Source: Cupriavidus pauculus (GTDB taxonomy: Bacteria > Pseudomonadota > Gammaproteobacteria > Burkholderiales > Burkholderiaceae). Taken from it: a stretch of DNA of 64,000 nucleotides. The translations under genes were made by a program, and so were the position numbers. The notes beneath the pieces are model-generated. The model did not search any database and was not told the DNA's origin. It worked only from the letters and a program-made list of their open reading frames with translations. Location of the stretch: NCBI RefSeq assembly GCF_003854935.1, contig NZ_CP033970.1, positions 806,001-870,000 of the forward strand, read 5' to 3'. Below are positions 40,612-58,534 of this stretch, piece after piece (the first letter of the stretch is position 1; each line of letters starts with the position of its first letter).

Positions 40612-40713
40612 CACCCCCGCAGCGGGCCGGCGCTTTGTGCGTCCGCCCACAGACGCCCCGATTGCCGTACGCAACCATGACCCCAGTCATTGATGGATGG
40701 ACGGGGAGCAGTC

Positions 40714-42117
40714 ATGGCATCGAACTGGGGCGTGGCCGGCGAGCGGCGTAGTGCATTGCACTATCTCTACAGGTTATCGGACGCATTGCTGATCGCGGCG
40801 ATGGGCGTGCTGATGGGCGAGCTGTACTTCGCGGGCGGCCTGCGCGACAGCGCGCCCGTCAACGGCTTCCTGACCATGCTCTGCGCGCTGGGCGCCCTGG
40901 TCGTGTTCCCGGCGTTCGGCATCTACGAATCGTGGCGCGGCCGCAGCCTGGCCGCGCTGGTGCTGCGCATTGCGGCGGCGTGGACGCTGGTGTTCATCAC
41001 CGGCCTGCTCGGCGCGTTCCTGATCCACCAGATCGGCGCCGTGTCGCGGGTCTGGTCGATCGGCTGGTTCGTGTCGGCCGGCCTGGCGCTGCTGGTGGGA
41101 CGCGCGGTGATGTTCCGCATGCTCGGCAACGTGCGCGAGCAGGGCATCAACGCCAAGCGCGTGCTGATTTTCGGCTACGGCCCGCTCGGCCGCGAGATGT
41201 ACCGCCGCGTGCAGCAGTTCCGCTCGGCCGGCTACAGCGTGGTGGGCATCTACGACGACGGCACCGACGCCACGCCGCCCGAAGTGCCCGCGCTGCGCAC
41301 GCTGGACGAAGTCAGCGCCTTCGTGCGCGGCCAGGGCGTGCGCGAGATCTGGCTGACCCTGCCGATGGCCGCCTGCCGCGACCTGTCCGACGTGGTGCGC
41401 CAGTTCCGCAACGACCTGATCGACATCCGCTGGGTGCCCGACGTCTCGTCGGTGGAGCTGCTGGGCCACCGCTTCAGCGAATTCATGGGCCTGCCCGTGA
41501 TCGACCTGAACAGCCCGCCGGTGTCGGGCATCACGGGCGTGGTCAAGGCCAGCTTCGACCGCGTGTTCTCGTTCGCCGTGCTGGTGGGCCTGAGCCCGCT
41601 GCTGCTGGTGATCGCCGCGCTGGTGAAGCTGTCGTCGCCGGGGCCGGTGCTGTTCCGCCAGCAGCGGCTGGGCATCGATGGCCGGCCGTTCGCGGTGTAC
41701 AAGTTCCGCACCATGCGGATGCACGCGGACCACGGCGTCACGCAGGCCACGCGCGGCGATCCGCGCGTGACGCGCATCGGCGCGTTCCTGCGCCGCACTA
41801 GCCTGGACGAGCTGCCGCAGTTCCTGAACGTGCTGCGCGGCGAGATGTCGGTGGTGGGCCCGCGCCCGCACGCGATGGAGCACAACGAGCTCTACAAGGA
41901 ACTGATCGACCGCTACATGCTGCGCCACCGCGTGAAGCCGGGCATCACGGGCTGGGCGCAGATCAACGGGCTGCGCGGCCAGACCGACACCATCGACAAG
42001 ATGCGCAAGCGCATCGAGTTCGACATCTATTACATCCAGCACTGGTCGTTCCAGCTCGACCTGCGGATCATCCTGCGCACCGCGCTGCACGGCTGGACCG
42101 GCGCCACCGCTTACTGA
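40714..42117 (+). CDS. Undecaprenyl-phosphate glucose phosphotransferase (WcaJ/GumD type), initiating enzyme
   Basis: 467 residues. The N-terminal half has four to five membrane helices and a CoA-binding-like domain (RVLIFGYGPLGREMYRR). The C-terminal transferase domain has ASFDRVFSFAVLVGLSPLLL, LFRQQRLGIDGRPFAVYKFRTM, RIGAFLRRTSLDELPQFLNV and LRGEMSVVGPRPHA, then KPGITGWAQINGLRGQT. It transfers sugar 1-phosphate (usually glucose) to undecaprenyl phosphate, the first step of repeat-unit assembly. GGAG stands six bases before the ATG at 40714. It heads the exopolysaccharide locus. Confidence 0.93.
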   Translation: MASNWGVAGERRSALHYLYRLSDALLIAAMGVLMGELYFAGGLRDSAPVNGFLTMLCALGALVVFPAFGIYESWRGRSLAALVLRIAAAWTLVFITGLLGAFLIHQIGAVSRVWSIGWFVSAGLALLVGRAVMFRMLGNVREQGINAKRVLIFGYGPLGREMYRRVQQFRSAGYSVVGIYDDGTDATPPEVPALRTLDEVSAFVRGQGVREIWLTLPMAACRDLSDVVRQFRNDLIDIRWVPDVSSVELLGHRFSEFMGLPVIDLNSPPVSGITGVVKASFDRVFSFAVLVGLSPLLLVIAALVKLSSPGPVLFRQQRLGIDGRPFAVYKFRTMRMHADHGVTQATRGDPRVTRIGAFLRRTSLDELPQFLNVLRGEMSVVGPRPHAMEHNELYKELIDRYMLRHRVKPGITGWAQINGLRGQTDTIDKMRKRIEFDIYYIQHWSFQLDLRIILRTALHGWTGATAY

Positions 42118-42215: not shown

Positions 42216-42464
42216 ATGAAAGCAACCATCCGCAACATACTCGGCGACGTCGCCCGACTCAATGTGCCAGTGGCTTCGCTTGCCGATCATGACGACCTGT
42301 ACGAGGCGGGGCTTTCCTCGCTGGCCACGGTCCACGTGATGCTGGCGCTGGAGAATGCTTTCGACATCGAGATCCCCGACCGCATGCTGACGCGGCAGCT
42401 CTTCCGCAGCGTCGATTCGCTCGCGGCCGCCGTGGAAACCATCCAGAAGCAGGAAGTGGCATGA
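42216..42464 (+). CDS. Acyl/peptidyl carrier protein, partner of the amino acid:carrier-protein ligase
   Basis: 82 residues. The phosphopantetheine site is EAGLSSLATV with Ser35, in place of the DSL of fatty acid ACP. Acidic helices (DLYEAGLSS, ALENAFDIEIPDRML) fit the four-helix fold. Its stop codon overlaps the start of the flavoenzyme gene (ATGA at 42461). Dedicated carrier proteins accompany class II aaRS-like ligases in Bradyrhizobium and Agrobacterium and receive an aminoacyl group on their pantetheine arm. So this is more likely an amino acid carrier than a fatty acid one. Confidence 0.9.
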   Translation: MKATIRNILGDVARLNVPVASLADHDDLYEAGLSSLATVHVMLALENAFDIEIPDRMLTRQLFRSVDSLAAAVETIQKQEVA

Positions 42465-43648
42465 GCGCCGCGACCAACCGGGTGGCGCTGGCGCACGCCA
42501 ATCCCGATGCCGGCCCGCTGCTGGCCGCCGCGCGCGACGCCGCCGAGGTGGCCCGCCGCCATGCCGATGCCGTGGACCAAGAGGCCCGCTTTCCGCACGA
42601 GGCGTTCGCAGCGCTGCGCGCCGCCGGCTTGCTGGGCGCCATGGTGCCGCAGGCCCAGGGTGGCGCGGGCGCGTCGCTGGCCACGGTGGCCGCGCTGTGC
42701 CGCGAACTGGGCCAGGGCTGCGCGTCCACGGGCATGATCTACGCGATGCACCAGATCCAGGTGGCCTGCCTGGTCGACCACGGCGCCGCCAGCAACTGGC
42801 ACCAGGCGCTGCTGGCCCGCGTGGCCGCCGAGCAGTTGCTGCTGGCCTCGGCCACGTCCGAGGAAGCCATCGGCGGCGCGCTGCGCAGCAGCGGCTGCGC
42901 GGTCAATGTCGACGGCGACCGCTTTCACCTGCTGAAGATGGCGCCCACGATCTCGTACGGCGCGCACGCCGACGGCATCCTGATCACGGCCCGGCGCCAT
43001 GCCGATGCGTCGCCGTCCGACCAGGTGCTGGTCTGCGCGATGCAGCCCGACTACACGCTCCAGTCGCTGAACACGTGGGACACGCTGGGCATGCGCGGCA
43101 CGTGCAGCAACGGCTTTCGGCTCGAAGCCACGGGCCACGTGGACCAGGTGCTGCCGGTGCCGTTCGGCGAGATTGCCGATGCCACGATGACGCCCGTGTC
43201 GCACATCCTCTGGAGCGCGCTCTGGGTAGGCATCTGCGGCGACGCCGTGGCGCGCGCCAAGACGTTCTTCCAGGGCCAGGCACGCGCCCGGCCCGGCACG
43301 CTGCCGCCGTCGGCCACGCGCGTGGCCGAGGCCGTGAGCATGCTGGAGATGATGGAGGCGCGGCTGGAAATGGCGCTGGCCCGCCAGCGCGCGCGGCACG
43401 CCAATGCGTCGGTGTCCGCGGCGTTCGCGCACGCGGCCGGCATGAACGGGCTCAAGACGTCGATGTCGACGATGGCGCTCGATGTCGTGCAGCAGGCGCT
43501 GCTGGTGTGCGGCATGGCCGGCTACAAGCAGGGCACGCCGTACAGCCTGGGCCGCCACCTGCGCGACCTGTGGTCCGCGCCGCTGATGATCAACAACGAC
43601 CGCATCCAGACCAATACGGCCAATCTGCTGCTGGCCGACCGTTCGTGA
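42461..43648 (+). CDS. Acyl-CoA dehydrogenase-family flavoenzyme
   Basis: 395 residues with the usual three-part fold: an N-terminal helical domain (ARFPHEAFAALRAAGLLGAMVP-like), a beta domain (LASATSEEAIGGALRS, NTWDTLGMRGTCSNGFRL) and a C-terminal helical domain (MSTMALDVVQQALLVCGMAGYK). At the place where most relatives have a catalytic Glu in YEGT, it reads MINNDRIQTN, so the base is elsewhere or the chemistry differs. Between a carrier protein and an amino acid loading enzyme, it may oxidise the carrier-bound aminoacyl group, as PigA does with prolyl-carrier. That is inference. Confidence 0.85.
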   Translation: MSAATNRVALAHANPDAGPLLAAARDAAEVARRHADAVDQEARFPHEAFAALRAAGLLGAMVPQAQGGAGASLATVAALCRELGQGCASTGMIYAMHQIQVACLVDHGAASNWHQALLARVAAEQLLLASATSEEAIGGALRSSGCAVNVDGDRFHLLKMAPTISYGAHADGILITARRHADASPSDQVLVCAMQPDYTLQSLNTWDTLGMRGTCSNGFRLEATGHVDQVLPVPFGEIADATMTPVSHILWSALWVGICGDAVARAKTFFQGQARARPGTLPPSATRVAEAVSMLEMMEARLEMALARQRARHANASVSAAFAHAAGMNGLKTSMSTMALDVVQQALLVCGMAGYKQGTPYSLGRHLRDLWSAPLMINNDRIQTNTANLLLADRS

Positions 43649-43658
43649 GGAGTGACCG

Positions 43659-44636
43659 ATGGATGCCCATGCACTGACCGACCGCGCGCAGGGCGGCGCT
43701 GCCGGTGAAATGGCCCCGGCGCCCGTCGCCGCTGTGCCCACCTACCTTGACCGGCTGCTCGCCGCCGGCCTGCTGATCGACACTGGCGTCCAGGGCCTGT
43801 ACGGCCGCAGCGCGGCGTTCGAAGCCATCGCCGACGGCCTGAACCTGGCCATCTCGCGCATCGGCGCCGACCAGCACGCCGAGGTGCTGCGCTTTCCGCC
43901 GGCCATGGGCCAGCAGGATTTCGAGACCAGCGAGTACCTGAAGAGCTTTCCGCAGCTGGCCGGCACCATCCACAGCTTCTGCGGCGACGACCGCGGGCAC
44001 CGGCGCCTGCTGGCGCGGCTGGAGGACAAGGAACCGTGGACCGACGAGCAGGCATTCACCGGCGTGGTGCTGACGCCGGCGGCCTGCTATCCGATCTATC
44101 CGGTCGTCGCGCGGCGCGGCCCGCTGCCGCCCGAGGGCAAGGTGGTGGACGTGCTGTCGTACTGCTACCGCCACGAGCCGTCGCTGGAGCCCACGCGCAT
44201 GCAGCTGTTCCGGCAGCGCGAGTACGTGTGCCTGGGATCGCCCGAGCGCATCGTGGCCTTCCGCCAGCTCTGGATGGCGCGCGGCCAGGCGCTGGCCGAG
44301 GCGCTGCAGCTGCCCGTGCAGGTGGACGTGGCCAACGACCCGTTCTTCGGGCGCGGCGGCAAGATCGTGGCCGACAGCCAGCGCGAGCTGAAGCTCAAGT
44401 TCGAGCTGCTGGTGCCGGTGAACGACGGCGCGCCGCCCACCGCCTGCATGAGCTTCAACTACCACATGGACCACTTCGGCGCGCTGTGGCACATCGGCCT
44501 GGCCGATGGCGGCGTGGCGCATACGGGCTGCGTCGGCTTCGGCATCGAGCGGCTGGCGCTGGCGCTGCTCAAGCATCACGGGCTCGATCCGGCAGCGTGG
44601 CCGCAACCGGTGCGCGAGACGCTGGGAGACCTGTAA
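43659..44636 (+). CDS. Amino acid--[carrier protein] ligase (class II aaRS homologue without anticodon domain)
   Basis: 325 residues. A stand-alone class II synthetase catalytic core: motif 2 YCYRHEPSLEPTRMQLFRQRE and motif 3 GCVGFGIERLALALLKHHG. Zinc-ligand candidates Cys143, Glu188 and Cys291 match, with a constant offset of 12, the Cys131/Glu176/Cys279 that I recall for the Bradyrhizobium enzymes. No tRNA-binding domain is present. Characterised homologues activate glycine or alanine and load a carrier protein instead of tRNA. The carrier is encoded two genes upstream. The amino acid used here is unknown. Confidence 0.9.
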   Translation: MDAHALTDRAQGGAAGEMAPAPVAAVPTYLDRLLAAGLLIDTGVQGLYGRSAAFEAIADGLNLAISRIGADQHAEVLRFPPAMGQQDFETSEYLKSFPQLAGTIHSFCGDDRGHRRLLARLEDKEPWTDEQAFTGVVLTPAACYPIYPVVARRGPLPPEGKVVDVLSYCYRHEPSLEPTRMQLFRQREYVCLGSPERIVAFRQLWMARGQALAEALQLPVQVDVANDPFFGRGGKIVADSQRELKLKFELLVPVNDGAPPTACMSFNYHMDHFGALWHIGLADGGVAHTGCVGFGIERLALALLKHHGLDPAAWPQPVRETLGDL

Positions 44637-45623
44637 ATGTTCGGTGACGGCAAGGCTGTTCGCGCGCGAGGGGGCGCCTATGCATTGCACGGCGGCAATC
44701 CGGTCTGGTCGCACGCCAACCGGCATATCGACCTGTGGATCGAGCTGCTGCATGGCTGGAACTTCGAACCGATCGCCGCGCTGCCCTTTACCGTCACGCT
44801 CGATTTCTCCGGCGACCAGTTCACGCCGTCGAACATCCCGCCGGCCGACCTGGAGCAGCTGTTCGGCATCGTGCGCGACGAGCTGTCGACCTACGGCCGG
44901 CTGGAGGCCCACGTGGCGGCGCAGACCAACCGCGGCAACGCCGTGCTGCTGGAGGTGGACAGCTACCAGCTTCCGCAGCCGGCCAGCACCTACCGCCGCC
45001 AGCATGCGCGCGCCTGCATCGCCATCGACGTGCTGGTGCCGGACGCCACGGCCGTGGGCTACTACCACCACGACGGCTACCACACCGCCAGCGGCGACGA
45101 CTACCTGGCGATCTTCCGCACGCCGGCCCACGAGACGATGTGGGGCGTGGCCACGTTCCCGCAGGCCGAGGTGGTGCGCCGGCGCTTTCCGGCGCTGACC
45201 GAGGACGACCTGCTGCAGGCATCGGTAGACCTGCTGCGCGGCCATCTGGCGCGCCGTCCGCGCGACAACCCGATCCAGGCGTTCCGCGCCGTGTTTCCCG
45301 CGCACCTGGAGCAACTGATGGCGCGCGGCGAGCCGAACTTCCAGATCTACGCCGCCAGCGTGCTGCGGCAGCTCGGGGCCAACTTCGAGCTGCTGGGCCG
45401 CTACGTGCGCTGGCTGGTGATGCACGGCCAGAGCCTGCCCGAGTCGGTGGCCGAGGCGTGCTACACGATGGCGTCCGAGGCCATGGTGATGCAGTTCCGC
45501 CTGATGCGCGCGGTCATCAGCCGCAAGCCCGATAGCTGCGACGACTGCCTGGAGCAGCTGGAGCTGGCCTACCAGGGCACGGTGCCGGCGCTGGCGGCCC
45601 ATTTCGGGGAGACCGTCACATGA
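44637..45623 (+). CDS. DUF1839 family protein (first copy)
   Basis: 328 residues with no signal or membrane segment. The ATG directly follows the stop of the ligase gene. Recognisable shared sequence with the second copy (49414) includes HIDLWIELLHGWNFEPIAALPFTV, LEAHVAAQTNRGNAVLLEVDSY, LRQLGANFELL and SEAMVMQFRLMRAV. The family is found next to amino acid:carrier-protein ligases and has no known activity. Position suggests that it transfers, releases or accepts the aminoacyl group; that is inference. Confidence 0.85.
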   Translation: MFGDGKAVRARGGAYALHGGNPVWSHANRHIDLWIELLHGWNFEPIAALPFTVTLDFSGDQFTPSNIPPADLEQLFGIVRDELSTYGRLEAHVAAQTNRGNAVLLEVDSYQLPQPASTYRRQHARACIAIDVLVPDATAVGYYHHDGYHTASGDDYLAIFRTPAHETMWGVATFPQAEVVRRRFPALTEDDLLQASVDLLRGHLARRPRDNPIQAFRAVFPAHLEQLMARGEPNFQIYAASVLRQLGANFELLGRYVRWLVMHGQSLPESVAEACYTMASEAMVMQFRLMRAVISRKPDSCDDCLEQLELAYQGTVPALAAHFGETVT

Positions 45624-48187
45624 CCGCACGCGATCCGGTACCGGCGCTGCTGCCCATCCTGCGCCCCGGCGTGGCCGTGGGCCGCGCACGCCTGGAAGGC
45701 GACTGGACCTTCCTGGAGACGTTTGCCAACGCGGCGGCGCATCCGGGCGAGCTGTCCGAGACCGGGCACTGGCTGCCCGCGCCCGTGCCGGGCACCGTGG
45801 CGGCCGCGCTGCGCGCCGCGCGGCGCTGGGACGACACCGCGCCGCCGCCGCTGCACCAGCACGACTACTGGTACCGGCTGCATTTCTCGGGCAGCGGCCG
45901 CCGCCTGCTGCGCTGCAACGGGCTGGCAACGATCGCCGAGGTCTGGCTCAACGGCGTGAACGTACTGACCACGCGCCATATGTTCGCCGCGCATCAGGTG
46001 GAGGTGGAACTGGCCGGCGCGGACAACGTGCTGCATATCTGCTTCCGCGCGCTGCATCCATACCTGCGCACGCAGCGCGGCCCGGTGCGGTGGAAGCCGC
46101 GCATGATCCAGCCGCCGTCGCTGCGCACGGTCCGCACCACGCTGCTCGGCCATATGGCCGGCTGGTGTCCGCCCGTGCATGCGGTGGGGCCGTGGCGCGA
46201 CATCGAATTGCTCGATCCGGCCGCCACCGACCTCACGCATGGCGTGCGGGCCGAGCTGTCGGGCAGCATCGACGGCGCCGATGGCATCGTCGCGCTGCAA
46301 CTGCATTTCCCGGGCGCGGCGCCGGCGCAGGCGACGTTCGCCGCCGTCGGGCCGGACCACGCGGTCTGGCATGGCGAACTGCGCCGCGCCGGCCCGCATA
46401 CGCTGGCCGGCACGCTACGCATCCCCCACGCGGAACGCTGGTGGCCGCACACACACGGCACGCCCGCGCTGTACCACGTCGACGCCGGCATCGGCGGACA
46501 GGTGCTGGCCTGCGGCAACGTGGGCTTCCGCACCGTCACCGAGGACCGCGATGGCGATCCCGGCGCGTTTGCGCTGCGCGTCAACGGCGAACGCATCTTC
46601 TGCCGCGGCGCGTGCGTGTCCAGCCACGACCTGCCCGGCCTGGCCGATACCGACGAGGCCGTGGCCCGCTGGCTACAGCTCGCGCGCGACGCCGGCGCCA
46701 ACATGGTCCGCGTCAGCGGCGTGACCTGCTATCCCGGCGAGGCGTTCTACCGCCAGTGCGACGCGCTGGGCCTGCTGGTCTGGCAGGACTTCATGTTCGC
46801 CAACTTCGACTACGGCAGCGAGACCGGCGCCAGCCCCACGCTGATGGACGACGCGCGGCGCGAGGTGTCGCAGTGGCTCACGTCCACGCGCGCGCACGCC
46901 AGCCTGGCCGTGCTGTGCGGCGGCAGCGAGTCCGAGCAACAGGCGGCGATGATGGGCGCGCCGCGCGGCACGTGGCGCCAGCCGCTGTTCGATACGCTGA
47001 TCCCGTCGCTGGTGGCCGAGCATCGTCCCGACGTGGTCTACGTGCGCAATTCGCCGTGCGAAGGCGCGTGGCCGTTCCAGGCCGATACCGGCGTGTCGCA
47101 CTACTACGGCGTGGGCGCCTACCAGCGCCCGCTGGCCGATGCGCGGCTGGCCAATGTTCGCTTCACGTCCGAATGCCTGGCGTTTGCCAACGTGCCGTGC
47201 GCGCGCACGCTGGCAGAGGCGGGGCTCACGCAGCCGCTACACGACCCGCGCTGGAAGGCCCGCGTGCCGCGCGACGCCGGCGCGGCCTGGGATTTCGAGG
47301 ACATCCGCGACTTCTACCTGCGCGCGCTGTTCGACGTCGATCCGCCGCGCCTGCGCTACGAGCGCCCGGCACGCTATCTGGCGCTGTCCCGCGCCGTGGT
47401 GGCCGAGATCATGACCGACGTGTTCGGCGAATGGCGCCGCGCCGGTTCCACCTGCCAGGGCGGGCTGGTCTGGCAGTTGCAGGACCTGCTGCCCGGCCCC
47501 GGCTGGGGCATCGTCGATGCCATGGCGCGGCCCAAGTCGGCCTGGCACGCGCTGCGGCAGGTGTGGCAGCCGCTGCAGGTCATCCTGACCGACGAGGGGC
47601 TCAACGGCCTGCACGTGCACCTGATCAACGAGACGCCCGCGCCGCGCACGGTGCGGCTGGCGCTGCGCTGCCTGCGCGATGGCGAACACGTGGCGGAGTC
47701 GGCCGTGCGTACGCTGACGCTGGCCCCGCGCGAGACGCGCCGGCTGGTGGCGGCGGAACTGTTCGATCACTTTGTCGACCTGACCTATGCCTACCGCTTC
47801 GGCCCGCCGGCCCACGACGTCGTGCTGGCCACGCTGCACGACGACGCGCCGGAAGCGGCGGACGAGACAGGCAACCGGTTGCTTAGCCAGTCCGTTTTCC
47901 TGCCCGACCGCCGCGCCGACGCGCTGCAGGACCCTGGCCTGTGCGCCAGCGTGGCGCGCCAGGACGGCGTCTGGTGGCTGACCGTCACGGCCCGGCGCTT
48001 TGCACGATGGGTGCACGTGGATGACCACGCGTACCTGCCCGAGTGCGACTGGTTCCACCTGGGACCGCGCGAAACGCGCCGCATCCGCCTGATGCACGAG
48101 GGCCCCGGCACGGCAGGTGCGGGCGCCATCCCTTCGGGCGAGGTGGCCGCATTGAACGCCGGCCGGCCCGTCAGCTACGCCGGCTGA
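45620..48187 (+). CDS. Glycoside hydrolase family 2 protein (beta-mannosidase-like)
   Basis: 855 residues, starting within the DUF1839 stop codon (ATGA at 45620). Jelly-roll N-domain (APVPGTVAAAL, YWYRLHFSG, IAEVWLNGVNVL), then the TIM barrel with FCRGACVSSHDLPG and GANMVRVSGVTCYPGEAFY. Acid/base candidates Glu437/Glu439 stand in CGGSESEQQ, and the probable nucleophile is Glu518 in RFTSECLAFANVP. Mannosidases usually read NNEN and SEFG at these places, so the active site is variant. No signal peptide is visible, so it is cytoplasmic, odd for a polymer degrader: it may act on sugar intermediates or serve as a transglycosidase. Confidence 0.85.
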   Translation: MTARDPVPALLPILRPGVAVGRARLEGDWTFLETFANAAAHPGELSETGHWLPAPVPGTVAAALRAARRWDDTAPPPLHQHDYWYRLHFSGSGRRLLRCNGLATIAEVWLNGVNVLTTRHMFAAHQVEVELAGADNVLHICFRALHPYLRTQRGPVRWKPRMIQPPSLRTVRTTLLGHMAGWCPPVHAVGPWRDIELLDPAATDLTHGVRAELSGSIDGADGIVALQLHFPGAAPAQATFAAVGPDHAVWHGELRRAGPHTLAGTLRIPHAERWWPHTHGTPALYHVDAGIGGQVLACGNVGFRTVTEDRDGDPGAFALRVNGERIFCRGACVSSHDLPGLADTDEAVARWLQLARDAGANMVRVSGVTCYPGEAFYRQCDALGLLVWQDFMFANFDYGSETGASPTLMDDARREVSQWLTSTRAHASLAVLCGGSESEQQAAMMGAPRGTWRQPLFDTLIPSLVAEHRPDVVYVRNSPCEGAWPFQADTGVSHYYGVGAYQRPLADARLANVRFTSECLAFANVPCARTLAEAGLTQPLHDPRWKARVPRDAGAAWDFEDIRDFYLRALFDVDPPRLRYERPARYLALSRAVVAEIMTDVFGEWRRAGSTCQGGLVWQLQDLLPGPGWGIVDAMARPKSAWHALRQVWQPLQVILTDEGLNGLHVHLINETPAPRTVRLALRCLRDGEHVAESAVRTLTLAPRETRRLVAAELFDHFVDLTYAYRFGPPAHDVVLATLHDDAPEAADETGNRLLSQSVFLPDRRADALQDPGLCASVARQDGVWWLTVTARRFARWVHVDDHAYLPECDWFHLGPRETRRIRLMHEGPGTAGAGAIPSGEVAALNAGRPVSYAG

Positions 48188-48597: not shown

Positions 48598-49326
48598 ATG
48601 ATCACGCATCGGTCTGACCTGCACGTCAATCATCTGCTCAACGCTCTGCCCCGCCACGAGTGGGAAGTGTTGTCGCGCCATTTCGAACTCGTCCGCCTGC
48701 GTGCAGGGGAGCTGCTGACCGATTCGGGCCAGCGCATCGTCCACGTGTACTTTCCCACCACCTCGGTCGTGTCGCTGCTGTCGCTGCTGGAAGACGGCGC
48801 CACGGTGGAATTCGCGGCAGTGGGCAACGAGGGCCTGGTCGGCATCCCGGTGGTCACGGGCGGCGACACCATGCCCAGCCGCGTGGAAGTGCGCAGTCCC
48901 GGCTTTGCCTACCGCATTCCGGCCCGCGCGCTGCGCAGCGAACTGGCGCACCTGCCGTCGCTGCAGCGCGTGACGCTGCTCTACGTGCAGGCCGTGCTGA
49001 CGCAGATCGCGCAGACCGCCGCGTGCAACCGCCACCATTCGCTGAACAAGCAGCTTTGCCGCTGGCTGCTGCTGGCGATCGACCGCATGAACTCGAACGA
49101 GCTGGTCATCACGCAGCAGGTCATCGCCAACATGCTCGGCGTGCGCCGCGAGGGGGTGACCGAGGCCGCCGGCAAGCTGGAGGACCTGGGCCTGATCCAC
49201 CACAGCCGCGGCCACATCACCGTGCTGGACCGTTGCGGGCTGGAGCATCACTCCTGCGAGTGCTACAAGCTGGTCAAGCGCGAATACGACCGCCTGCTGC
49301 CGGCGCTGACGCTGGCGCACGCCTGA
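48598..49326 (+). CDS. Crp/Fnr-family transcriptional regulator
   Basis: 242 residues. The cyclic-nucleotide-like beta-roll (VHVYFPTTSVVSLLSLLEDG, VEFAAVGNEGLVGIPVV) lacks the cAMP-binding signature, and the N-terminus has no Fnr cysteines. C-terminal winged helix: VITQQVIANMLGVRREGVTEAAGKLEDLGL, written in pieces QQVIANMLGVRREGVTE and AAGKLEDLGLIHHSRG. AGGAGG is present before the ATG. It lies between the aminoacyl-carrier operon and the second DUF1839 gene, so it may control them. The 410 bp upstream (48188-48597) hold no gene or strong motif that I can name. Confidence 0.9.
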   Translation: MITHRSDLHVNHLLNALPRHEWEVLSRHFELVRLRAGELLTDSGQRIVHVYFPTTSVVSLLSLLEDGATVEFAAVGNEGLVGIPVVTGGDTMPSRVEVRSPGFAYRIPARALRSELAHLPSLQRVTLLYVQAVLTQIAQTAACNRHHSLNKQLCRWLLLAIDRMNSNELVITQQVIANMLGVRREGVTEAAGKLEDLGLIHHSRGHITVLDRCGLEHHSCECYKLVKREYDRLLPALTLAHA

Positions 49327-49413: not shown

Positions 49414-50454
49414 CTAGCCATGCGCCGGATCCACGCTCCCGAAGGACGCCAGCAGCCCGGCCATCACGGTGGCGTAGGCCGCCTCCAGCGTGTCCAGGCT
49501 CTCCGTGCACGGATCGGGCCGCCGCCGCGCCAGCGCGCGGGCCAGGCGGAACTGCAGCACCTTGCATTCCGACGCGATGGTCAGCGCCGCCCCGGCCACG
49601 TCCGGCGGTGCGCGGTGGCCGTGCTCGCCCAGCCAGTGCAGCCCGTGATGCAGCATCTCGAAGTTCGCGCCAAGCTGGCGCGGCAGGTTGAAGCCATAGT
49701 GATGGAAATAGGCGTCGCCGCGCGCCAGGATCGCCGCCACGTGCTCGGGAAATTCGGCACGCCAGCGCGCCACCGGGCTCTCGGCCGGCCGGCGCCCCAG
49801 ATGGCGGCGCAGCAGTTGCGCCACGGCGTTGGACAGCGCGCGGCCCTGCAACGGCGCGCGTACCCGCTTGGCGCATTCCACGTAAGGGAACAGGATGTTG
49901 CCGTCGCCCTGCAGCGCCGGGGTCAGGCGCATCAGCCCCTGGTAGTCGTCGCCCTCGGCCGTGTGCCGGCCCAGCCCGTGAAAGTAGTGCAGCCGCTGCG
50001 CGCCAGTGTCGATCGCGTCGATGGCGATCGTCGTCTTGACGTGGGCGGCGCGGTACGCGGTGGCGCGGGTGTCCGGCAGGTAGAAGCTGTCCACTTCCAC
50101 CAGCATCGCGTGGCCGCGCCGCACCTGCGCGGCGACGTGCGCCTCCAGCGTGTCGTAGATCGCGCTTTCCTGCACCACCGTGCCATACAGCAGTTCCAGG
50201 TCGGCCTGCGGGTACTTGAAGAAGGTGAAGTGGTCGCCTTCGTAGTCCTGCGCCACCGTGAACGGCAGCGCCGCGCGCGGGTCGAGGTGCCAGCCGTACA
50301 GCAGCTCGATCCACACGTCCATGTAGCAGTTGGTCTCCTGCCAGACCGATGCCTCGCCGTGCAGCAGCCGCTGCGGCGCCACCACCGGGCGGGCCGGCGG
50401 CTGCGCGGGGGCGGGGGCGTCGGCCAGCGGCGCCAGCGCGTTTGCTTGCTCCAT
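49414..50454 (-). CDS. DUF1839 family protein (second copy)
   Basis: 346 residues, paralogue of the 44637 product. Shared blocks in the same order: YMDVWIELLYGWHLDPRAALPFTV, DTLEAHVAAQVRRGHAMLVEVDS, RQLGANFEML and SECKVLQFRLARALARRRPDPC. A Pro/Ala-rich stretch precedes the domain. It is transcribed away from the EPS kinase genes and convergent with the Crp/Fnr gene. GGAGG stands upstream of the ATG at 50454. Having two diverged copies in one locus suggests two acceptors or two steps in the pathway. Confidence 0.85.
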   Translation of the reverse strand: MEQANALAPLADAPAPAQPPARPVVAPQRLLHGEASVWQETNCYMDVWIELLYGWHLDPRAALPFTVAQDYEGDHFTFFKYPQADLELLYGTVVQESAIYDTLEAHVAAQVRRGHAMLVEVDSFYLPDTRATAYRAAHVKTTIAIDAIDTGAQRLHYFHGLGRHTAEGDDYQGLMRLTPALQGDGNILFPYVECAKRVRAPLQGRALSNAVAQLLRRHLGRRPAESPVARWRAEFPEHVAAILARGDAYFHHYGFNLPRQLGANFEMLHHGLHWLGEHGHRAPPDVAGAALTIASECKVLQFRLARALARRRPDPCTESLDTLEAAYATVMAGLLASFGSVDPAHG

Positions 50455-50726
50455 CTCGTGTCCTCCGTGTCCGTGTCGGATGGCCAACCGTATTGGAGCC
50501 CCGCTCGCGCCGGGCATCGGTACGGTGTCCAACAAAGTCGCGCTGGCCGGGGTGCCGCGCACGGCGGGCGGCAGCGTGTGCGGAATCGAACAGAGTCCCG
50601 CCGACGCACATTCCTACACTGGCCCCATCCTTCCGGGACACGGGGCGGGCATGCGCGTGGCGTCGCGCCCGCCGTGCCGGGTCCGGAAGCCAGTTCGCGC
50701 CGACAAGCAGTCACCAGCAGGGGAAC

Positions 50727-52292
50727 ATGATGAGACTTCCGACCCGGGGGAAAAGCCTTCCCTCCGCCGCCGTGCCGACGATGATGGAGCATACGGGCCA
50801 CGGCATGTCCGCGCCGCAGACGCGGCAGGCGCTGATCCAGCCCGTGATCCTGGCCGGCGGTTCCGGCACGCGGCTCTGGCCGCTGTCGCGCGAGCAGCAT
50901 CCCAAGCAGTTGCTGAACCTGGTGGCCGAGAACACGCTGCTGGAAGCCACGGCGCGCCGGCTCGAAGGGCTGGCGGTCATGGCCGGGCGCACGGTCGGGG
51001 TGGAAGCCCCGCAGATCGTGGTGTGCGGCGAGGAACATCGCTTCATGATCGAGGCAATGATGAAGCGCTGCGGCAAGCCCGCGCAGATCCTGGCCGAGCC
51101 GTGCGGCCGCAACACCGCGCCCGCGCTGACGATGGCCGCGCTGCACGCGGTGGCCAATGCCGGCGAGATGGGCGACGCGGTGCTGGTGGCCACGCCGGCC
51201 GATCACGCCGTGACCGATCCCGAGGCGTTCCGCGCCGCGCTGGCGGTGGCGGTGCGGCATGCCGACCGCGGCGCCATCGTGACGCTGGGCGTGCGGCCCA
51301 GCGTGCCGGAAACCGGCTTTGGCTACATCCGCACGGGCCAGGCGTCGCAGGAAGGCGCGCTGCCGCTGGAGCGCTTTGTCGAAAAGCCGCACCTGGAACT
51401 GGCACAGGCGTACGTGGAATCGGGCGACTACTGGTGGAACAGCGGCGTGTACGTGGTGCGCGCCACGGTCTGGCTGCGCGCGCTCGATGCACTGCAGCCC
51501 GACATGGCGCGCCAGTGCCGCGCCGCCTACGAGGCCGCCGAGCGCGCCGCCAAGGGCGACGCGCTGTGCCTGTGCAAGGAAGCGTTCGAGGCGTGCCCGT
51601 CGGACTCCATCGACTACGCGGTGATGGAACAGATCGAGACGCTGGCCGACATCCCGGCCATGCTGGTGCCGATGGACCCGGGCTGGTCCGACGTGGGCTC
51701 GTGGGCCGCGATCTGGGACATCGCCGAAAAGGACGCGGCCGGCAACGTGGCGCGCGGGCGCGTGCTGTTCGATGGCGCGTCGTCGTGCCTGGCCCATTCC
51801 GAAGGGCGGCTGATCGCCTGCGTGGGCGTGCAGGACGTGGTGGTGGTGGAAACCGCCGACGCCGTGCTGGTGGTCGACAAGGCCCACGTGCAGGACGTGA
51901 AGAACGTGGTGCAGCGGCTGCGCTCGGAGCACGGCGCCGAGATCGTCAACCACCGCAAGGTGCAGCGCCCGTGGGGCTGCTACGACTCCATCGACCATGG
52001 CGACCGCTTTCAGGTCAAGCGCATCGTGGTGGAGCCGGGCGCCAGCCTGTCGCTGCAGATGCACTACCACCGCGCGGAGCACTGGGTGGTGGTGCGCGGC
52101 ACGGCACGGGTGACCTGTGGCGACACGGTCAGCATCCTGTCGGAGAACCAGTCGACTTACATCCCCATCGGCACCCAGCACCGGCTGGAAAACCCGGGCA
52201 AGACGCCGCTGGAGATCATCGAGGTGCAGTCGGGCTCCTACCTGGGCGAGGACGACATCGTCAGGTACGAGGACAACTACGGTCGCAAGTAG
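50727..52292 (+). CDS. manC: Mannose-1-phosphate guanylyltransferase / mannose-6-phosphate isomerase (ManC/AlgA type)
   Basis: 521 residues, bifunctional. The nucleotidyltransferase N-domain opens PVILAGGSGTRLWPLSREQHPKQ and has EPCGRNTAPALT, FVEKPHLE and DPGWSDVGSW. The C-terminal cupin isomerase has QRPWGCYDSID, LQMHYHRAEHWVVVRGTA and QSTYIPIGTQHRLENPG. It makes GDP-mannose from mannose 6-phosphate by way of mannose 1-phosphate, supplying a precursor for the exopolysaccharide. Phosphomannomutase is not in the window. Two ATG codons in tandem (50727, 50730) follow GGGGAA; internal starts at residues 20 and 27 are also possible. The usual family length favours one of the later ones. Confidence 0.92.
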   Translation: MMRLPTRGKSLPSAAVPTMMEHTGHGMSAPQTRQALIQPVILAGGSGTRLWPLSREQHPKQLLNLVAENTLLEATARRLEGLAVMAGRTVGVEAPQIVVCGEEHRFMIEAMMKRCGKPAQILAEPCGRNTAPALTMAALHAVANAGEMGDAVLVATPADHAVTDPEAFRAALAVAVRHADRGAIVTLGVRPSVPETGFGYIRTGQASQEGALPLERFVEKPHLELAQAYVESGDYWWNSGVYVVRATVWLRALDALQPDMARQCRAAYEAAERAAKGDALCLCKEAFEACPSDSIDYAVMEQIETLADIPAMLVPMDPGWSDVGSWAAIWDIAEKDAAGNVARGRVLFDGASSCLAHSEGRLIACVGVQDVVVVETADAVLVVDKAHVQDVKNVVQRLRSEHGAEIVNHRKVQRPWGCYDSIDHGDRFQVKRIVVEPGASLSLQMHYHRAEHWVVVRGTARVTCGDTVSILSENQSTYIPIGTQHRLENPGKTPLEIIEVQSGSYLGEDDIVRYEDNYGRK

Positions 52293-52343: not shown

Positions 52344-54737
52344 GTGATCAACATGTCTTATGCGGGCGCAGCGGCGCCGGCCACAGCGGCCACGCCGCCC
52401 GCGGGCACCGGAAGCGCCCGGCGCGCGATGCTGGACCACGCCGGCTGGATCCTGGGCGCGGCACTGGCCGGCGGGCTCGTTGCATGGGTCTGCGCGGTCT
52501 CGCAGCCGCACGAATACAGCGCCAGCGCGCTGGTGCAGGTGCAGCAGTCGCGCGAGGGCATGGCGGCGGCGCGCAACGCGGCGGCCACCATGGCCGCCAC
52601 GCCGGTGCCGCTCGATGTCGGCATGCTGCGCAGCCGCACCGTCGTGGCGCCGGTCGTGGAGCGGCTGCATCTGGACATCTCGGTGCGTCCGCTGCGCGCG
52701 CCGCTGTTGGGCGGACTGGCCGCGTACTTCGCCACGCCGGGGCAGTTGTCCGGCCCCTGGCCCGAAAGCCTGGGCTACGCCTGGGGCGGCGAGCAACTCA
52801 CCGTGGACCGTCTGGCCGTGCCCGAGCGCCTGCTCAACGCGCCGCTGACGCTGGAAGTGCTGCAGGGCGACCGCTACCGCCTCTCCTATCGCGATGCCGA
52901 ACTGCTGACCGGCGCCGTGGGTGGCGTGGCGCAGGCCAATGGCGTGACGATGCAGGTCACGCGCATCGACGCCCGGCCGGGCACGCGCTTTACCGTGACG
53001 CGGCATGACCTGGTGCAGACCGTGGATGCTGTGGCCGACGCGCTGCGCATCGAGATGCAGCCTGGCGACGCCGGCACCGTCAGCATCGGCTGGCGCACCA
53101 CCGACCGCATGGCCGCCGCCGCGCTGGTCAACGGCATCACCGAGTCGTTCATCGGCAACCAGGCCATGCAGCGGCGCGACGACACGGCCGCCACGCTGGG
53201 CTTCCTGTCCGCCGAGATCCCGCGCGTGAAGGCCGAGCTGGAACGCGCCGAGGCCGCGCTGACGCGCTACCGCTCGAAGGCCGGCACCATCGCGCCCACG
53301 CAGGACGCCCAGTCGTACCTGACGGGCAGCATGGACTACCAGCGGCAGATCGCGCTGCTCAAGCTCGAACGCACCAAGATGCTGCAGCGCTTTACGGAAG
53401 AGGCCAACGAGGTCAAGACCATCGACAGCCAGATCCAGCAGCTGATGCGCGAGCGCAAGGACATGGATTCGCGCTACCAGAACCTGTCGTCGACCGAGCG
53501 CGAATCGGTGGCCCTGACGCGCGACGTCAAGGTGGCCGAGGACATGTACATGACGCTGCGCAACAAGGCCGAGCAGCTGTCGCTGGTGCAGCTGGACCGC
53601 ACGGGCCAGGTGCGCGTGCTGGACAGCGCGCTGGTGCCGGTGCGCCCGGTGGGCTTTGGCCCGTGGCCGGCCACGCTGGCCGGCGCCATGATGGGCCTGT
53701 GCCTGGCCATGGCGTGCGTGACCGTGCGCCAGCGCATCCGTCCCACGCTGGAAAACGTCAACGAGGCCGAGGCACGCCTGGGCCTGCCGATGCTGGGCGA
53801 CGTGGTGTTCAGCCAGGAACAGGTGGAGCTGGAGCGCCTGATCGACGCACGCGCCCAGGCCGGCTGGTCGCCGGGGTCGCTGGCGGGCCTGCTGCCGCAG
53901 CAGCCGGGCCACGCGCTGGTCAATCCCGACGAACTGGCGGAGACCACCGACGACGACATGGACGGCGCCGAGCGCCTGCTGCGCCTGGGCCTGCACGACC
54001 AGTTCCTGCTGGCCCGCAACGCCCCGCATTCGATGGCCGTGGAAGGGCTGCGCAACGTGCGCGCCGCGCTGCATTTCTCGCTGCGCGACAGCAAGCTGCG
54101 CACCGTGGCCGTGACCAGCCCCACGGCCGGCGCGGGCAAGACGTTCGCATCGGTCAACCTGGCCGTGCTGTTTGCCGAAGCGGGCCAGCGCGTGCTGCTG
54201 ATCGACGCCGACCTGCGGCGCGGCAAGGTGGCCAACTGGTTCGACCTGCCCGTCGGTGCCGGCCTGGCCGACGTGCTGGCGGGCCGCTCCACGCTGCCGG
54301 ACGCCGTCAAGCTGACCATCGTCAACGGCCTGTCGGTGCTGCCGGCCGGCGCGCCGCCCGACAACCCGTCGGAACTGCTGATGAGCCCGGCCTTTGCCAA
54401 GTGCCTGGACGCCTGCGCGGAGCGCTTCGACCTGGTCATCATCGACACCCCGCCCGTGATGGCCGTGGCCGATGCGACGCTGGTGGCCAACTGTGCCGGC
54501 GCCACGCTGCTGGTGCTGCGCGCCGATACCACGCTGCCGTCGCAGGTGGACGAATCGCTGAAGCGGCTGGCGCGCGCCAATGCCACGCTGCTGGGCGGCA
54601 TTCTCAACGGCGTGGTGCCCAAGCGCAGCAACCGCACCGACTTCACCGCCATGAACCCGTACCTGGGCATGCCCGTGGCGGCGCCGGCGATCAAGCAGAT
54701 CGGCCATACCCCGGCGGCACATAACAACACAGCCTGA
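52344..54737 (+). CDS. Wzc/GumC-type polysaccharide co-polymerase with BY-kinase domain (no Tyr cluster)
   Basis: 797 residues. Membrane helix 1 (about residues 30-52), a large periplasmic domain with coiled-coil (VKAELERAEAALTRYRSKAG), helix 2 (about 437-457), and a cytoplasmic kinase domain with Walker A TSPTAGAGKTFASVNLA (about residue 591), A' LLIDADLRRGKVANW and Walker B LVIIDTPPVMAVADAT. The C-terminus lacks the multi-tyrosine tail of typical kinases. It controls chain length and export of the polymer. It follows manC by 51 bp and appears to be in its operon; a GC-rich hairpin lies between them. Confidence 0.92.
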   Translation: MINMSYAGAAAPATAATPPAGTGSARRAMLDHAGWILGAALAGGLVAWVCAVSQPHEYSASALVQVQQSREGMAAARNAAATMAATPVPLDVGMLRSRTVVAPVVERLHLDISVRPLRAPLLGGLAAYFATPGQLSGPWPESLGYAWGGEQLTVDRLAVPERLLNAPLTLEVLQGDRYRLSYRDAELLTGAVGGVAQANGVTMQVTRIDARPGTRFTVTRHDLVQTVDAVADALRIEMQPGDAGTVSIGWRTTDRMAAAALVNGITESFIGNQAMQRRDDTAATLGFLSAEIPRVKAELERAEAALTRYRSKAGTIAPTQDAQSYLTGSMDYQRQIALLKLERTKMLQRFTEEANEVKTIDSQIQQLMRERKDMDSRYQNLSSTERESVALTRDVKVAEDMYMTLRNKAEQLSLVQLDRTGQVRVLDSALVPVRPVGFGPWPATLAGAMMGLCLAMACVTVRQRIRPTLENVNEAEARLGLPMLGDVVFSQEQVELERLIDARAQAGWSPGSLAGLLPQQPGHALVNPDELAETTDDDMDGAERLLRLGLHDQFLLARNAPHSMAVEGLRNVRAALHFSLRDSKLRTVAVTSPTAGAGKTFASVNLAVLFAEAGQRVLLIDADLRRGKVANWFDLPVGAGLADVLAGRSTLPDAVKLTIVNGLSVLPAGAPPDNPSELLMSPAFAKCLDACAERFDLVIIDTPPVMAVADATLVANCAGATLLVLRADTTLPSQVDESLKRLARANATLLGGILNGVVPKRSNRTDFTAMNPYLGMPVAAPAIKQIGHTPAAHNNTA

Positions 54738-54774: not shown

Positions 54775-54821
54775 GGGCGTCCGAGGCGGGTTCCCGGTCA
54801 GTGTTATCGGGAGACGGATGG

Positions 54822-56714
54822 ATGAAACGGGTCACGTTCGATGGCTGCGCAGGCTGGTTGCACGGCGCGCGCGGCAACACCGGGGTGGTGCTCTGCGCAC
54901 CGCACGGTCACGAGATGATGTGGGCGCACCGCGCCTTCCGCCATCTGGCCGACCACCTTGCGCAAGCCGGCGTGCCCGTGCTGCGCTTCGACTACCGGGG
55001 CACCGGCGACGCCGCCGACCTGCCGGGCGGCATTGATCCGCTGGCCGCCGCGCTGGACGACATCGCCGCCGCTACCACGCTGCTGCGCCGGACTTCGGGT
55101 GCCACGCGCGTGGTGCTGTGCGGACTGCGGCTTGGGGCATCGCTGGCCGCGCTGGCCGCCACCCGTATCGACGCAGCCGGCGTGGTCATGCTGGCGCCGG
55201 TGCTGGACGGGCGCCTCTACCTGCGCGAACTGCGCGCGCTGCACGCGGGCTGGCGCAACAGCGCGATTCCCGAACTCGACGTGCCGCCGACGCCGGCCGG
55301 CGCGCAGGACGTGCTCAGCTTCCGCCTGCCCGCCACCACGCTGGCGGCCATCCAGTCGATCCGCATCGACGCCACGCTGGTGCTGCCGCGCACGCTGCTG
55401 CTGGACGCCTGGCCCGACCCTGGCTCGCCGCTGGCCCGGCTGGCTGGCGATTTGCGCGAGGCCGGCATCGACATCGAGCTGGACGGGTTTGCCGAGTATC
55501 CGGACATGATGCGCTCGGCCGAATTCGCCGACGTGCCGGCCCAGGCATGCCGCCGCATCACCGGCTGGATCGGCGCGGATGCGGCCAATGCGGCGCCCGC
55601 CCCCGTCGGGCCCGTGCCGACGCCCGATGCGCTGGCGCCGCCTGCGCTCGACGGCGTGGCCGAGCATCCGGTGTGGATCGACAACGCGCGCCTGTTCGGC
55701 GTGCTCTGTACCCCGGCGCCGCGCGCGCGCGATGCCCGGCCCAACACGGTCGTCATCTTTCCGAACACGGGCGGCAACCACCACGTCGGCGACGGCCGGC
55801 TGTTCGTCGAGGTATCGCGCCAGTTGGCCCGGCACGGCTTTGCGGCGCTGCGGCTGGACGTGTCGTCGCTCGGTGACGCCCCCGGTGCCGCCCAGCGGAT
55901 GGACTTGCAGACGATCTACGCCGAGACACCGCGCCGCGATCTGGCGGCGGCTGTCGATGCGATGCGCGCGCGGGGCTTCCGCTGCGTGGTGCTGGCCGGC
56001 ATCTGCTCGGGCGCGTTCCTGAGCCTGCACGCGGCGCTGGCCAATCGCGGCGTCAACGGGCTCATGCTGGTCAACCTCGTCAAGTTCCGCTGGGACGCGG
56101 CCGACAACGCGGCGGCGTCCGATCATCTGCGCCCGGCGCACGTGTACCTGGCTGCCGCGTGCAAATGGGAAAACTGGCGCCGGCTGATGCGCGGCGAACT
56201 GGGCCTGCGGCGGCTGGCGGCGGCGATGGCGCGCCGCGTGCGCCAGCGGCTGCGCGAGCGCCGCGAGACGGCGCCGGCCGAGGTGGCCGAGCCGTCGCCG
56301 CAGACGGTGCCGGCGTTCGCCAGCGCGGCCGTGCGCGAGTTCGAGCGGCGCGGCGTGCGCACGTTGTTCCTGTACGGCGCCAGCGACGTGGGCCTGCACG
56401 AGGCACACCTGGGCCTCGGCAAGCGGCTGGAGGCGCTGGAAGGGCTGCGCCACGTGCGGCTGCAGACGCTGCCGCTGCTGGATCATTCGCTGTTCCTGAC
56501 CGAAAGCCGCGACGCGTTTGCCGCGCAGTTGCTGGCGCACCTGGGGCAGATGCCGCAGGCCAAGGCCGCGCCGGTGGCGCACAAGCCGCCTGCCACGCAG
56601 TGGCGCCCGGCATCGCCGCGCAAGTCGAACCATGGCATGGCGGCGGAAACGCGCGGCGAGCGCGCCCGCGCATCGGCCGATGCCAGCAAGCCGGCGCGCG
56701 GCCGGGCACGATAG
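54822..56714 (+). CDS. Tandem alpha/beta hydrolase domain protein of the exopolysaccharide locus
   Basis: 630 residues with two alpha/beta-hydrolase-like halves (about 1-265 and 285-575). Each keeps early-fold elements: RFDYRGTGDAADLPGG in the first, LRLDVSSLGDAPG in the second. The nucleophile elbows deviate: GLRLGAS in the first half and GICSGAF in the second, without the usual GxSxG serine in the first. A His in LLDHSLFLTES closes the second. Similar proteins accompany exosortase or polysaccharide loci; their role is not established. The C-terminal 50 residues are basic and disordered-looking. Confidence 0.78.
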   Translation: MKRVTFDGCAGWLHGARGNTGVVLCAPHGHEMMWAHRAFRHLADHLAQAGVPVLRFDYRGTGDAADLPGGIDPLAAALDDIAAATTLLRRTSGATRVVLCGLRLGASLAALAATRIDAAGVVMLAPVLDGRLYLRELRALHAGWRNSAIPELDVPPTPAGAQDVLSFRLPATTLAAIQSIRIDATLVLPRTLLLDAWPDPGSPLARLAGDLREAGIDIELDGFAEYPDMMRSAEFADVPAQACRRITGWIGADAANAAPAPVGPVPTPDALAPPALDGVAEHPVWIDNARLFGVLCTPAPRARDARPNTVVIFPNTGGNHHVGDGRLFVEVSRQLARHGFAALRLDVSSLGDAPGAAQRMDLQTIYAETPRRDLAAAVDAMRARGFRCVVLAGICSGAFLSLHAALANRGVNGLMLVNLVKFRWDAADNAAASDHLRPAHVYLAAACKWENWRRLMRGELGLRRLAAAMARRVRQRLRERRETAPAEVAEPSPQTVPAFASAAVREFERRGVRTLFLYGASDVGLHEAHLGLGKRLEALEGLRHVRLQTLPLLDHSLFLTESRDAFAAQLLAHLGQMPQAKAAPVAHKPPATQWRPASPRKSNHGMAAETRGERARASADASKPARGRAR

Positions 56715-58481: not shown

Positions 58482-58534
58482 ACCGGGGCCGCCCAACACC
58501 TTTCATCAAGTCGTTGCTTCAGGGGGAAGCCATC

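Follow-up and report, generated by a model that had tools for sequence, protein, structure and literature searches.

Amino acid:[carrier protein] ligases activate an amino acid in an ATP-dependent reaction and load it onto the phosphopantetheine of a carrier protein. For the Bll0957 and Atu2573 ligases and their carriers (PDB entries 3mey, 4h2s and 4h2w), the known activity is this loading in vitro; we know of no transferase or acceptor for them. Carrier-dependent decoration of a cell-surface polymer is established for the dlt operon, by which D-alanine reaches teichoic acids via a carrier protein, with DltA as the AMP-binding enzyme and with transfer proceeding through DltB and DltD. Here we analyzed 64,000 nucleotides of Cupriavidus pauculus DNA (assembly GCF_003854935.1, contig NZ_CP033970.1, positions 806,001 to 870,000 of the forward strand; hereafter the window), in which a five-gene operon encodes a carrier protein, a flavoenzyme with an acyl-CoA dehydrogenase (ACAD) fold, a ligase of this kind, a DUF1839 protein and a glycoside hydrolase family 2 (GH2) enzyme within an exopolysaccharide (EPS) locus. 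The ligase and carrier are homologous to the Bll0957/Atu2573 pairs, with the zinc ligands kept. The operon differs from dlt in that no AMP-binding, DltB or DltD family matched any of its five proteins.

A system of the same composition was described by Aravind, de Souza and Iyer in 2010 (PMC2922099). It combines a paralog of seryl-tRNA synthetase (SerRS) as ligase, an acyl carrier protein, a redox enzyme, the DUF1839 protein Atu2574, a glycosidase and saccharide genes, and was assigned the same function, since the neighborhood was predicted to attach an amino acid to a sugar of the cell surface. The Note added in proof of that paper ascribes bond formation to Atu2574 and takes the redox enzyme for a probable monooxygenase, and a 2023 survey of papain-like proteins holds a weaker form of the same idea (PMC10318531). 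The earlier note on the window, which had spoken of a new type of polysaccharide decoration, therefore overstated the novelty. The 2010 passage argues from gene context only, without the disabled and intact DUF1839 pair or the companion hydrolase described below (PMC2922099). These two points, together with a fold match of DUF1839 to CcbD-type enzymes and an argument from alkaline polymer extraction, are new here in the sense that we did not meet them in the literature searched, which covered few subscription journals. That search, thin in this respect, yielded no physiological role for such ligases besides the one in the 2010 note, turned up the name DUF1839 in one paper, and brought nothing useful on the exosortase hydrolases.

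The genes of the proposed module in the window, with the hydrolase as an optional companion, are the following:

42216-42464, plus strand: carrier protein, 82 amino acids (PF00550, 42.3 bits; NF005480, 128.6 bits, cut-off 72)
42461-43648, plus strand: ACAD-like flavoenzyme, 395 amino acids (PF02771, Acyl-CoA_dh_N, 56.1 bits)
43659-44636, plus strand: amino acid:[carrier protein] ligase, 325 amino acids (NF005479, 513.7 bits, cut-off 357)
44637-45623, plus strand: DUF1839 copy 1, the operonic copy, 328 amino acids (PF08893, 430.2 bits, cut-off 22.5)
45620-48187, plus strand: GH2 beta-mannosidase-like enzyme, 855 amino acids (PF22666, Glyco_hydro_2_N2, 58.9 bits)
49414-50562 (probable start 50454), minus strand: DUF1839 copy 2, the proposed catalytic copy (PF08893, 451.4 bits, cut-off 22.5)
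54801-56714, plus strand: fused double alpha/beta hydrolase (TIGR03101, 78.8 bits, cut-off 202.75; TIGR03100, 121.4 bits, cut-off 168.45; both below cut-off)

The first five are coupled genes on one strand, as the earlier note had described, and their junctions are, in order, a 4-bp overlap, a 10-bp gap, an abutting pair and a 4-bp overlap. We favor the interpretation, whose chances we judge to be about even, that they form a type II aminoacyl module joined to the EPS locus, in which a carrier-bound acyl group is passed to a sugar intermediate. The ligase would use ATP to load a small amino acid, perhaps glycine or alanine, onto the phosphopantetheine of the carrier, and the flavoenzyme would modify the carrier-bound aminoacyl group. 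The intact DUF1839 protein (copy 2) would then take the acyl group onto Cys43 and, as its fold and neighborhood suggest, deliver it to a sugar intermediate of the polysaccharide in the cytoplasm, at a hydroxyl or an amino group. The operonic DUF1839 protein would, in this Cupriavidus lineage, be a pseudoenzyme whose retained role is that of a structural or regulatory partner. More speculatively, the GH2 enzyme may act in the trimming or recycling of a glycosylated intermediate, and the fused hydrolase (Cys-hydrolase) may clear misloaded carrier or aid transfer.

Comparison with characterized proteins supports the loading step. The ligase, an atypical homolog of the SerRS catalytic domain, matches the Bll0957 structures in the PDB with an E value of 1.5e-86, and its C143, E188 and C291 align with positions 151, 196 and 299 of the crystallized Bll0957 chain, which we take to be C131, E176 and C279 in native numbering. 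These three zinc ligands, already pointed out in the earlier note, are kept (Cys/Glu/Cys) in 142/142 distinct ligase segments, and the phosphopantetheine-bearing Ser35 of the carrier protein is kept in 116/117 (our residue counts refer to distinct trimmed segments, and one genome may count twice). The best PDB matches of the carrier protein are chain C of 4h2w and Atu2571 (2jq4). Together, the residues and matches of the two proteins support activation of an amino acid on the carrier as their probable function.

The two DUF1839 copies are the only ones that a profile search found in the 6.18-Mb genome; the earlier note mentions neither copy 2, nor the loss of the proposed catalytic Cys from copy 1, nor the fused hydrolase. 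Copy 2 is encoded between the CRP/FNR regulator and ManC genes, on the opposite strand, and is 47% identical to copy 1. The 2023 survey gives Cys, Thr/Ser and His as the DUF1839 triad (PMC10318531). Copy 2 has this triad as C43/T141/H159; copy 1 keeps the His, while C43, T141 and H251 of copy 2 are replaced in it by Arg, Ala and Gln. Having Arg and Ala instead of C43 and T141, copy 1 is ruled out as a Cys-dependent transferase. We compared 160 non-identical DUF1839 sequences (reduced from 226 by removing identical ends), of which 135 have the Cys, 133 of them with Thr and 2 with Ser, and 25 lack it. In 23 of these 25 the replacement is Arg (18) or Gln (5), and these 23 come from operons of the window's genus or its close kin; L115 (Gly) and L136 (Ala) are each isolated, and the L136 genome has no ligase match. 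A tree of 55 rows unites the Arg/Gln copies in a single supported clade (15 rows, 100/96), nested in a larger Cupriavidus-like clade of which the rest keep the Cys, except L136. At positions nearly invariant across the 135 Cys rows, the 25 non-Cys rows differ chiefly at C43, T141 and H251, the last being Gln in 23 of 25; L31, E72 and Y90 vary to a lesser extent. Two-copy loci numbered 23 after removal of duplicates, and in 21 of them a Cys-less copy accompanies a Cys copy; the other two have Cys in both.

Median dN/dS was 0.15 for the operonic copy (484 pairs), as against 0.24 and 0.16 for the Cys copy and the ligase, respectively (487 pairs each), in a set of 32 loci that includes repeat genomes as well as L052 and L118, where the operonic-clade copy has the Cys. 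Copy 1 is best read as a pseudoenzyme: it has lost the proposed catalytic residues and is under purifying selection, more tightly constrained than the Cys copy. We rejected the possibility that it is a decaying pseudogene, as its frame is intact, its departures are focused and its dN/dS is 0.15. We infer that copy 2 is the catalytic subunit and copy 1 a non-catalytic structural or regulatory partner. CcbD offers a precedent, in that residues of the neighboring monomer lie in its acceptor site (PMC12945683). Such a partner is not always needed, because some loci (L053 and L054) have the module with a Cys copy alone; the Burkholderia-like loci among those listed also have one DUF1839 protein, with Cys. 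Two kinds of variant were seen besides. At the two-copy locus L047, ACAD and GH2 are broken remnants, and the ligase, the carrier and both DUF1839 copies remain. At seven loci of the window's genus (L135, L136, L219, L222, L223, L224 and L225), an operonic-clade DUF1839 protein (six with Cys, one with Ala) is without an adjoining ligase; genome G440, to which L219 belongs, encodes carrier, ACAD and ligase at another locus (L218), and the other six such genomes are without a ligase match.

The fold of copy 2 points to a function for the family. An AlphaFold2 model built from 59 sequences (pLDDT 87.8, pTM 0.84) gave 19 Foldseek matches in the PDB at E <= 1e-3, all of them CtaG, AziU2/U3 or CcbD chains (E 1.2e-7 to 5.6e-4, TM-scores 0.50-0.63, 330-371 alignment columns); other papain-like proteins appeared only at E ~0.3 and above. 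By sequence, a DUF1839 search of the PDB gave one match (E 0.22), which we took as chance, and only DUF1839 matched in Pfam at E <= 0.01, with no match to BtrH_N. CtaG and AziU3/U2 act on carrier-bound substrates in small-molecule pathways. CcbD, which works with the carrier CcbZ in the celesticetin pathway, forms an amide between carrier-tethered proline and the amine of a thiooctose by a ping-pong mechanism with a Cys-His-Glu triad (PMC12945683). CcbD and DUF1839 share the papain-like fold and the Cys nucleophile, and carrier-dependent aminoacyl transfer to a sugar amine, the activity of CcbD, is the kind of activity proposed for DUF1839; they differ in that CcbD has an antibiotic product, has a sequence only 10-14% alike and uses Glu in its triad. 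BtrH, from the butirosin pathway, is alike in kind, transferring from an acyl carrier protein to an aminoglycoside (PMC10318531), but belongs to a different DUF family. Copy 2 has the Cys, and its His138 is invariant beside H159 (alignment A4). Copy 2 is probably best regarded, on the strength of a structural model, as a candidate CcbD-like carrier-dependent aminoacyl transferase. The earlier note's proposal of transfer to a sugar or polymer thus gains a plausible transferase from the DUF1839 fold, but the operonic DUF1839 protein that it had named is the disabled one.

The flavoenzyme departs from the dehydrogenases whose fold it shares. At position 377, the place of the MCAD Glu, 132/133 relatives have Ile and 1/133 has Val, and at position 247, the place of the IVD Glu, the same 133 sequences have Ser (121), Ala (10), Cys (1) or Thr (1), such that a canonical dehydrogenase Glu occurs at either place in 0/133; both places were assigned by eye from the alignment, with the help of MCAD and IVD motifs. 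H97, S165 and H248 are each kept in 133/133. On these grounds the oxidation on the carrier that the earlier note had proposed is not supported as the work of an ordinary acyl-CoA dehydrogenase, and plain dehydrogenation is unlikely because both canonical glutamates are missing. Filing the protein with the group D flavin monooxygenases was likewise unsupported, with scores of 65.5 for SfnB (cut-off 430.9), 62.3 for DszC (cut-off 850) and 46.4 for HsaA (cut-off 450). Its 31 PDB matches at E <= 1e-5 are weak and mixed, comprising dehydrogenases, TdsC/DszC, an HSA hydroxylase, DnmZ, a nitrososynthase and 3m9v; the last, presumably KijD3, is a PDB match only, at E 1.2e-9. To judge from these residues, alpha,beta-dehydrogenation of the carrier-bound aminoacyl group by the flavoenzyme is less likely than its oxygenation or some other non-canonical oxidation, and nothing in the present data contradicts the monooxygenation guess of the 2010 note (PMC2922099).

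The operon follows directly on the gene for the initiating sugar transferase, as the earlier note had observed, the stop of which lies 98 bp upstream of the carrier-protein gene. The neighboring features are:

40690-42117, plus strand: WcaJ-type undecaprenyl-phosphate glucose phosphotransferase, for EPS initiation (TIGR03023, 535.1 bits, cut-off 410.75)
48598-49326, plus strand: CRP/FNR-family regulator (PF13545, 55.2 bits)
50349-52292, plus strand: ManC GDP-mannose pyrophosphorylase/isomerase open reading frame (TIGR01479, 614.6 bits, cut-off 372.95; similarity from about residue 160)
52344-54737, plus strand: Wzc-type chain-length tyrosine kinase (WZC_N, 103.6 bits; TIGR01007, 155 bits, cut-off 108.05)

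At or past the end of the window lie genes for a second Wzc, a polysaccharide export protein, two family 1 glycosyltransferases (GT1), a GDP-mannose 4,6-dehydratase and an epimerase. We regard this as an EPS locus because WcaJ, the CRP/FNR regulator, ManC, Wzc, and export and GT1 genes surround the operon. A scan for promoters and terminators found 0 and 2, respectively, and shuffled sequence gave 0.5 and 2.8. Also within the locus, at 57719-60478, is a Kelch/galactose-oxidase-like protein with ricin-type lectin repeats (similar to the radical copper oxidase GlxA, 165.7 bits, below cut-off), which could oxidize the polymer, and downstream of it, at 60956-62578, a weakly pectate-lyase-like right-handed beta-helix protein (25.3 bits, Pfam cut-off 27).

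The same association is found in related genomes. We compared 80 Burkholderiaceae loci, which were the best 80 of 272 and are consequently close relatives, and dropped three under 15 kb from the EPS count. The carrier, ACAD, ligase and GH2 genes are all present at 72 of the remaining 77 DUF1839 loci, and WcaJ, Wzc or ManC lies within 8.5 kb of DUF1839 at 71, compared with 0/20 arbitrary 18-kb control stretches from ten module-bearing genomes. Among the loci listed, the order carrier-ACAD-ligase-DUF1839-GH2 recurs in Cupriavidus, Paraburkholderia, Caballeronia and Burkholderia and in other families and classes; the regions used for some of these neighborhood comparisons were hand-picked from longer lists. 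Across 125 distinct DUF1839 loci, counted after dropping short duplicates and repeated sets (the motif pattern missed L114 and L144), a ligase is present at 113. In a sample of the family, DUF1839 occurs in 142/300 genomes and a ligase over the cut-off in 133/300; in a sample of the class, DUF1839 occurs in 2/185 (the window's own genome and G071), both with a ligase; and in a sample of the phylum, DUF1839 occurs in 16/398 (the window's own included) and a ligase over the cut-off in 28/398. All 16 DUF1839 genomes of the phylum sample have the ligase adjoining, with 33-126 bp between profile matches (hypergeometric 2e-21 for co-occurrence, uncorrected for relatedness), and 12 of the 28 ligase genomes are without DUF1839. 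Two loci have two ligase genes, in tandem at L213 and converging with a hydrolase between them at L215.

Of ten module loci outside Burkholderiaceae, at least five (L201, L202, L203, L208 and L209) have a glycosyltransferase within about 10 kb. In all, 81 chosen frames of the ten loci were scanned together (for L204, L207 and L210 not every open frame was scanned singly); 5 of them match PF00534 (GT1, four placed to loci) and 2 match PF00535 (GT2, one placed to a locus). A PF02397 transferase was found within 60 kb on the same contig at none of the ten, where some modules lie near contig ends. The earlier note had set against its own proposal the case that homologous operons lie mostly outside polysaccharide loci, and the survey of DUF1839 neighborhoods is mixed in this regard: the polysaccharide context holds in Burkholderiaceae, at 71/77 loci against 0/20 controls, but elsewhere a glycosyltransferase was found at 5/10, a lower bound.

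Two further hydrolases belong to the locus. The GH2 profile matches the beta-mannosidase 5n6u (E 6e-83), and E437 and E518, the proposed catalytic pair by GH2 motifs, are kept in 109/111 and 110/111. The GH2 enzyme is probably cytoplasmic, because no signal peptide was seen by eye. The fused hydrolase is related to exosortase A-associated hydrolases, below their cut-offs as given above. In 29/29 Burkholderiaceae sequences its C half has Cys402-Asp529-His562 (alignment A8) and its N half has Arg110 in place of the Ser nucleophile; among 14 diverse hydrolases the latter place has Arg in 12 and Gly in 2, and a GxCxG motif is present in 57/57 distinct hydrolases. The fusion is thus a second dead/live arrangement, with an Arg-bearing N half and a Cys-nucleophile C half. 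Within fetched flanks, it occurs at 15/18 Cupriavidus/Ralstonia-type, 13/62 Paraburkholderia/Burkholderia/Caballeronia and 8/10 more distant DUF1839 loci, and at 2/5 further Burkholderia-like loci. It is also present at 4/9 Burkholderiaceae-family ligase loci without DUF1839, 0/8 such loci of another class (by which we mean the same phylum only, alphaproteobacterial by guess) and 0/20 controls, and is therefore often, though optionally, a companion of the module. The invariant Cys triad and GxCxG motif, and its presence at ligase loci that have no DUF1839, could indicate that transfer falls to this fusion and that DUF1839 serves in editing or hydrolysis. We consider that arrangement improbable, given the rarity of the fusion at Paraburkholderia/Burkholderia/Caballeronia loci and given that its model (pLDDT 80.0) matches generic esterases, lipases and one thioesterase.

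Gene order also connects the module to described biofilm polymers. The Burkholderia-like loci listed have the order CRP, carrier, ACAD, ligase, DUF1839, GH2, with WcaJ and ManC near. The bec cluster of Burkholderia pseudomallei contains, in order, becE (cyclic-nucleotide-binding), becF and becG (acyl-CoA dehydrogenase) (PMC5507470). By this order, becF-becJ would correspond to the present module, with becG as its ACAD and becF as its carrier protein, and by synteny the module lies in the bec and bep biofilm clusters. The two settings differ in that the passages on bec and bep in question do not speak of an aminoacyl module and in that the Burkholderia-like loci have the single Cys DUF1839. Biofilm formation by a becG transposon mutant was 0.84, compared with 1.25 for the wild type (PMC5507470, Table 1), and the primary screen hit all 18 cluster genes but three, with becM and becO absent from the library (PMC5507470). 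The bep polymer of Burkholderia cenocepacia is reported to have a Gal-Glc-Gal-Man repeat; its isolation used 0.3 M NaOH and the measurements were made in NaOD (PMC7084887), conditions that would strip an ester.

Several observations weigh against transfer to an EPS intermediate by DUF1839. The His and Thr/Ser of DUF1839 stand in swapped order relative to the usual papain-like order (PMC10318531). A ligase is missing from the fetched stretch at 12/125 DUF1839 loci, seven of the window's genus and five others (one of the five, L044, is cut by a contig end), and 6/7 of the genomes concerned in the window's genus have no ligase match at all. The remaining five of the ten non-Burkholderiaceae loci yielded no glycosyltransferase close to the module; the neighbors are sensor kinase, transporter, ThiC, GH5 or release-factor genes at L204-L207 and acyltransferase-3, GNAT and methyltransferase genes at L210. 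ACAD and ligase occur without DUF1839, GH2 or hydrolase at 8/8 other-class loci, which were chosen for lacking DUF1839. Within bec, becF was in the transposon library yet was not picked as biofilm-deficient, and the becG insertion may be polar, because becG was chosen as the operon's first gene (PMC5507470). Finally, the bep repeat, the sole solved polymer of this kind that we found, is reported in the passages concerned without an amino sugar or aminoacyl group (PMC7084887). With no amino sugar in the repeat, the 2010 proposal of an amide to a sugar amine misfits, and an ester or another acceptor would fit.

At the eight other-class loci (L193-L200), ACAD and ligase are adjacent, a weak carrier-like gene lies divergently upstream in 7/8, and the neighbors include EAL/GGDEF and AMP-binding proteins. 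The module could instead make a released small molecule, such as an altered amino acid, or an aminoacyl-sugar acting as metabolite or signal, with its adjacency to EPS genes reflecting shared regulation of biofilm formation. These varied settings of the ACAD-ligase pair, the five loci where no glycosyltransferase was found, and the small-molecule pathways from which the closest fold relatives of DUF1839 come would all suit such a product, which we take seriously even though we think it unlikely: EPS genes accompany DUF1839 at 71/77 of the Burkholderiaceae loci and none of the controls, a beta-mannosidase-like GH2 enzyme is encoded within the same operon, and the becG mutant formed less biofilm (PMC5507470). 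A different glycan or lipid, such as lipopolysaccharide, a lipid carrier or a cyclic glucan, might also serve as acceptor in place of the EPS repeat. The wording 'cell-surface sugar derivative' in the 2010 note allows for this (PMC2922099), as do the varied neighbors of the module in other classes and the acyltransferase-3, GNAT and methyltransferase genes at L210; set against the repeated embedding of the module in WcaJ/Wzc/ManC loci of Burkholderiaceae, we regard it as a slim prospect.

Transfer of a carrier-bound acyl group to an EPS sugar intermediate therefore remains the interpretation we favor. In its most specific form, biofilm EPS of Cupriavidus, Paraburkholderia and Burkholderia would carry a base-labile, oxidized aminoacyl ester, hidden by alkaline extraction and installed by a papain-like transferase that in Cupriavidus is an obligate heteromer of catalytic and disabled DUF1839 proteins; this full version we hold to be doubtful.

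Through gene order, fold and a biofilm mutant, the locus ties the amino acid:[carrier protein] ligases to a specific class of polymer. With that class and a likely transferase named, the role of the ligase becomes directly testable. If the ester exists, the structure of a biofilm polymer determined after alkaline extraction misses a group that may govern its charge and solubility. The disabled and intact DUF1839 proteins, for their part, offer a natural experiment on the makeup of carrier-dependent transferases with a papain-like fold.

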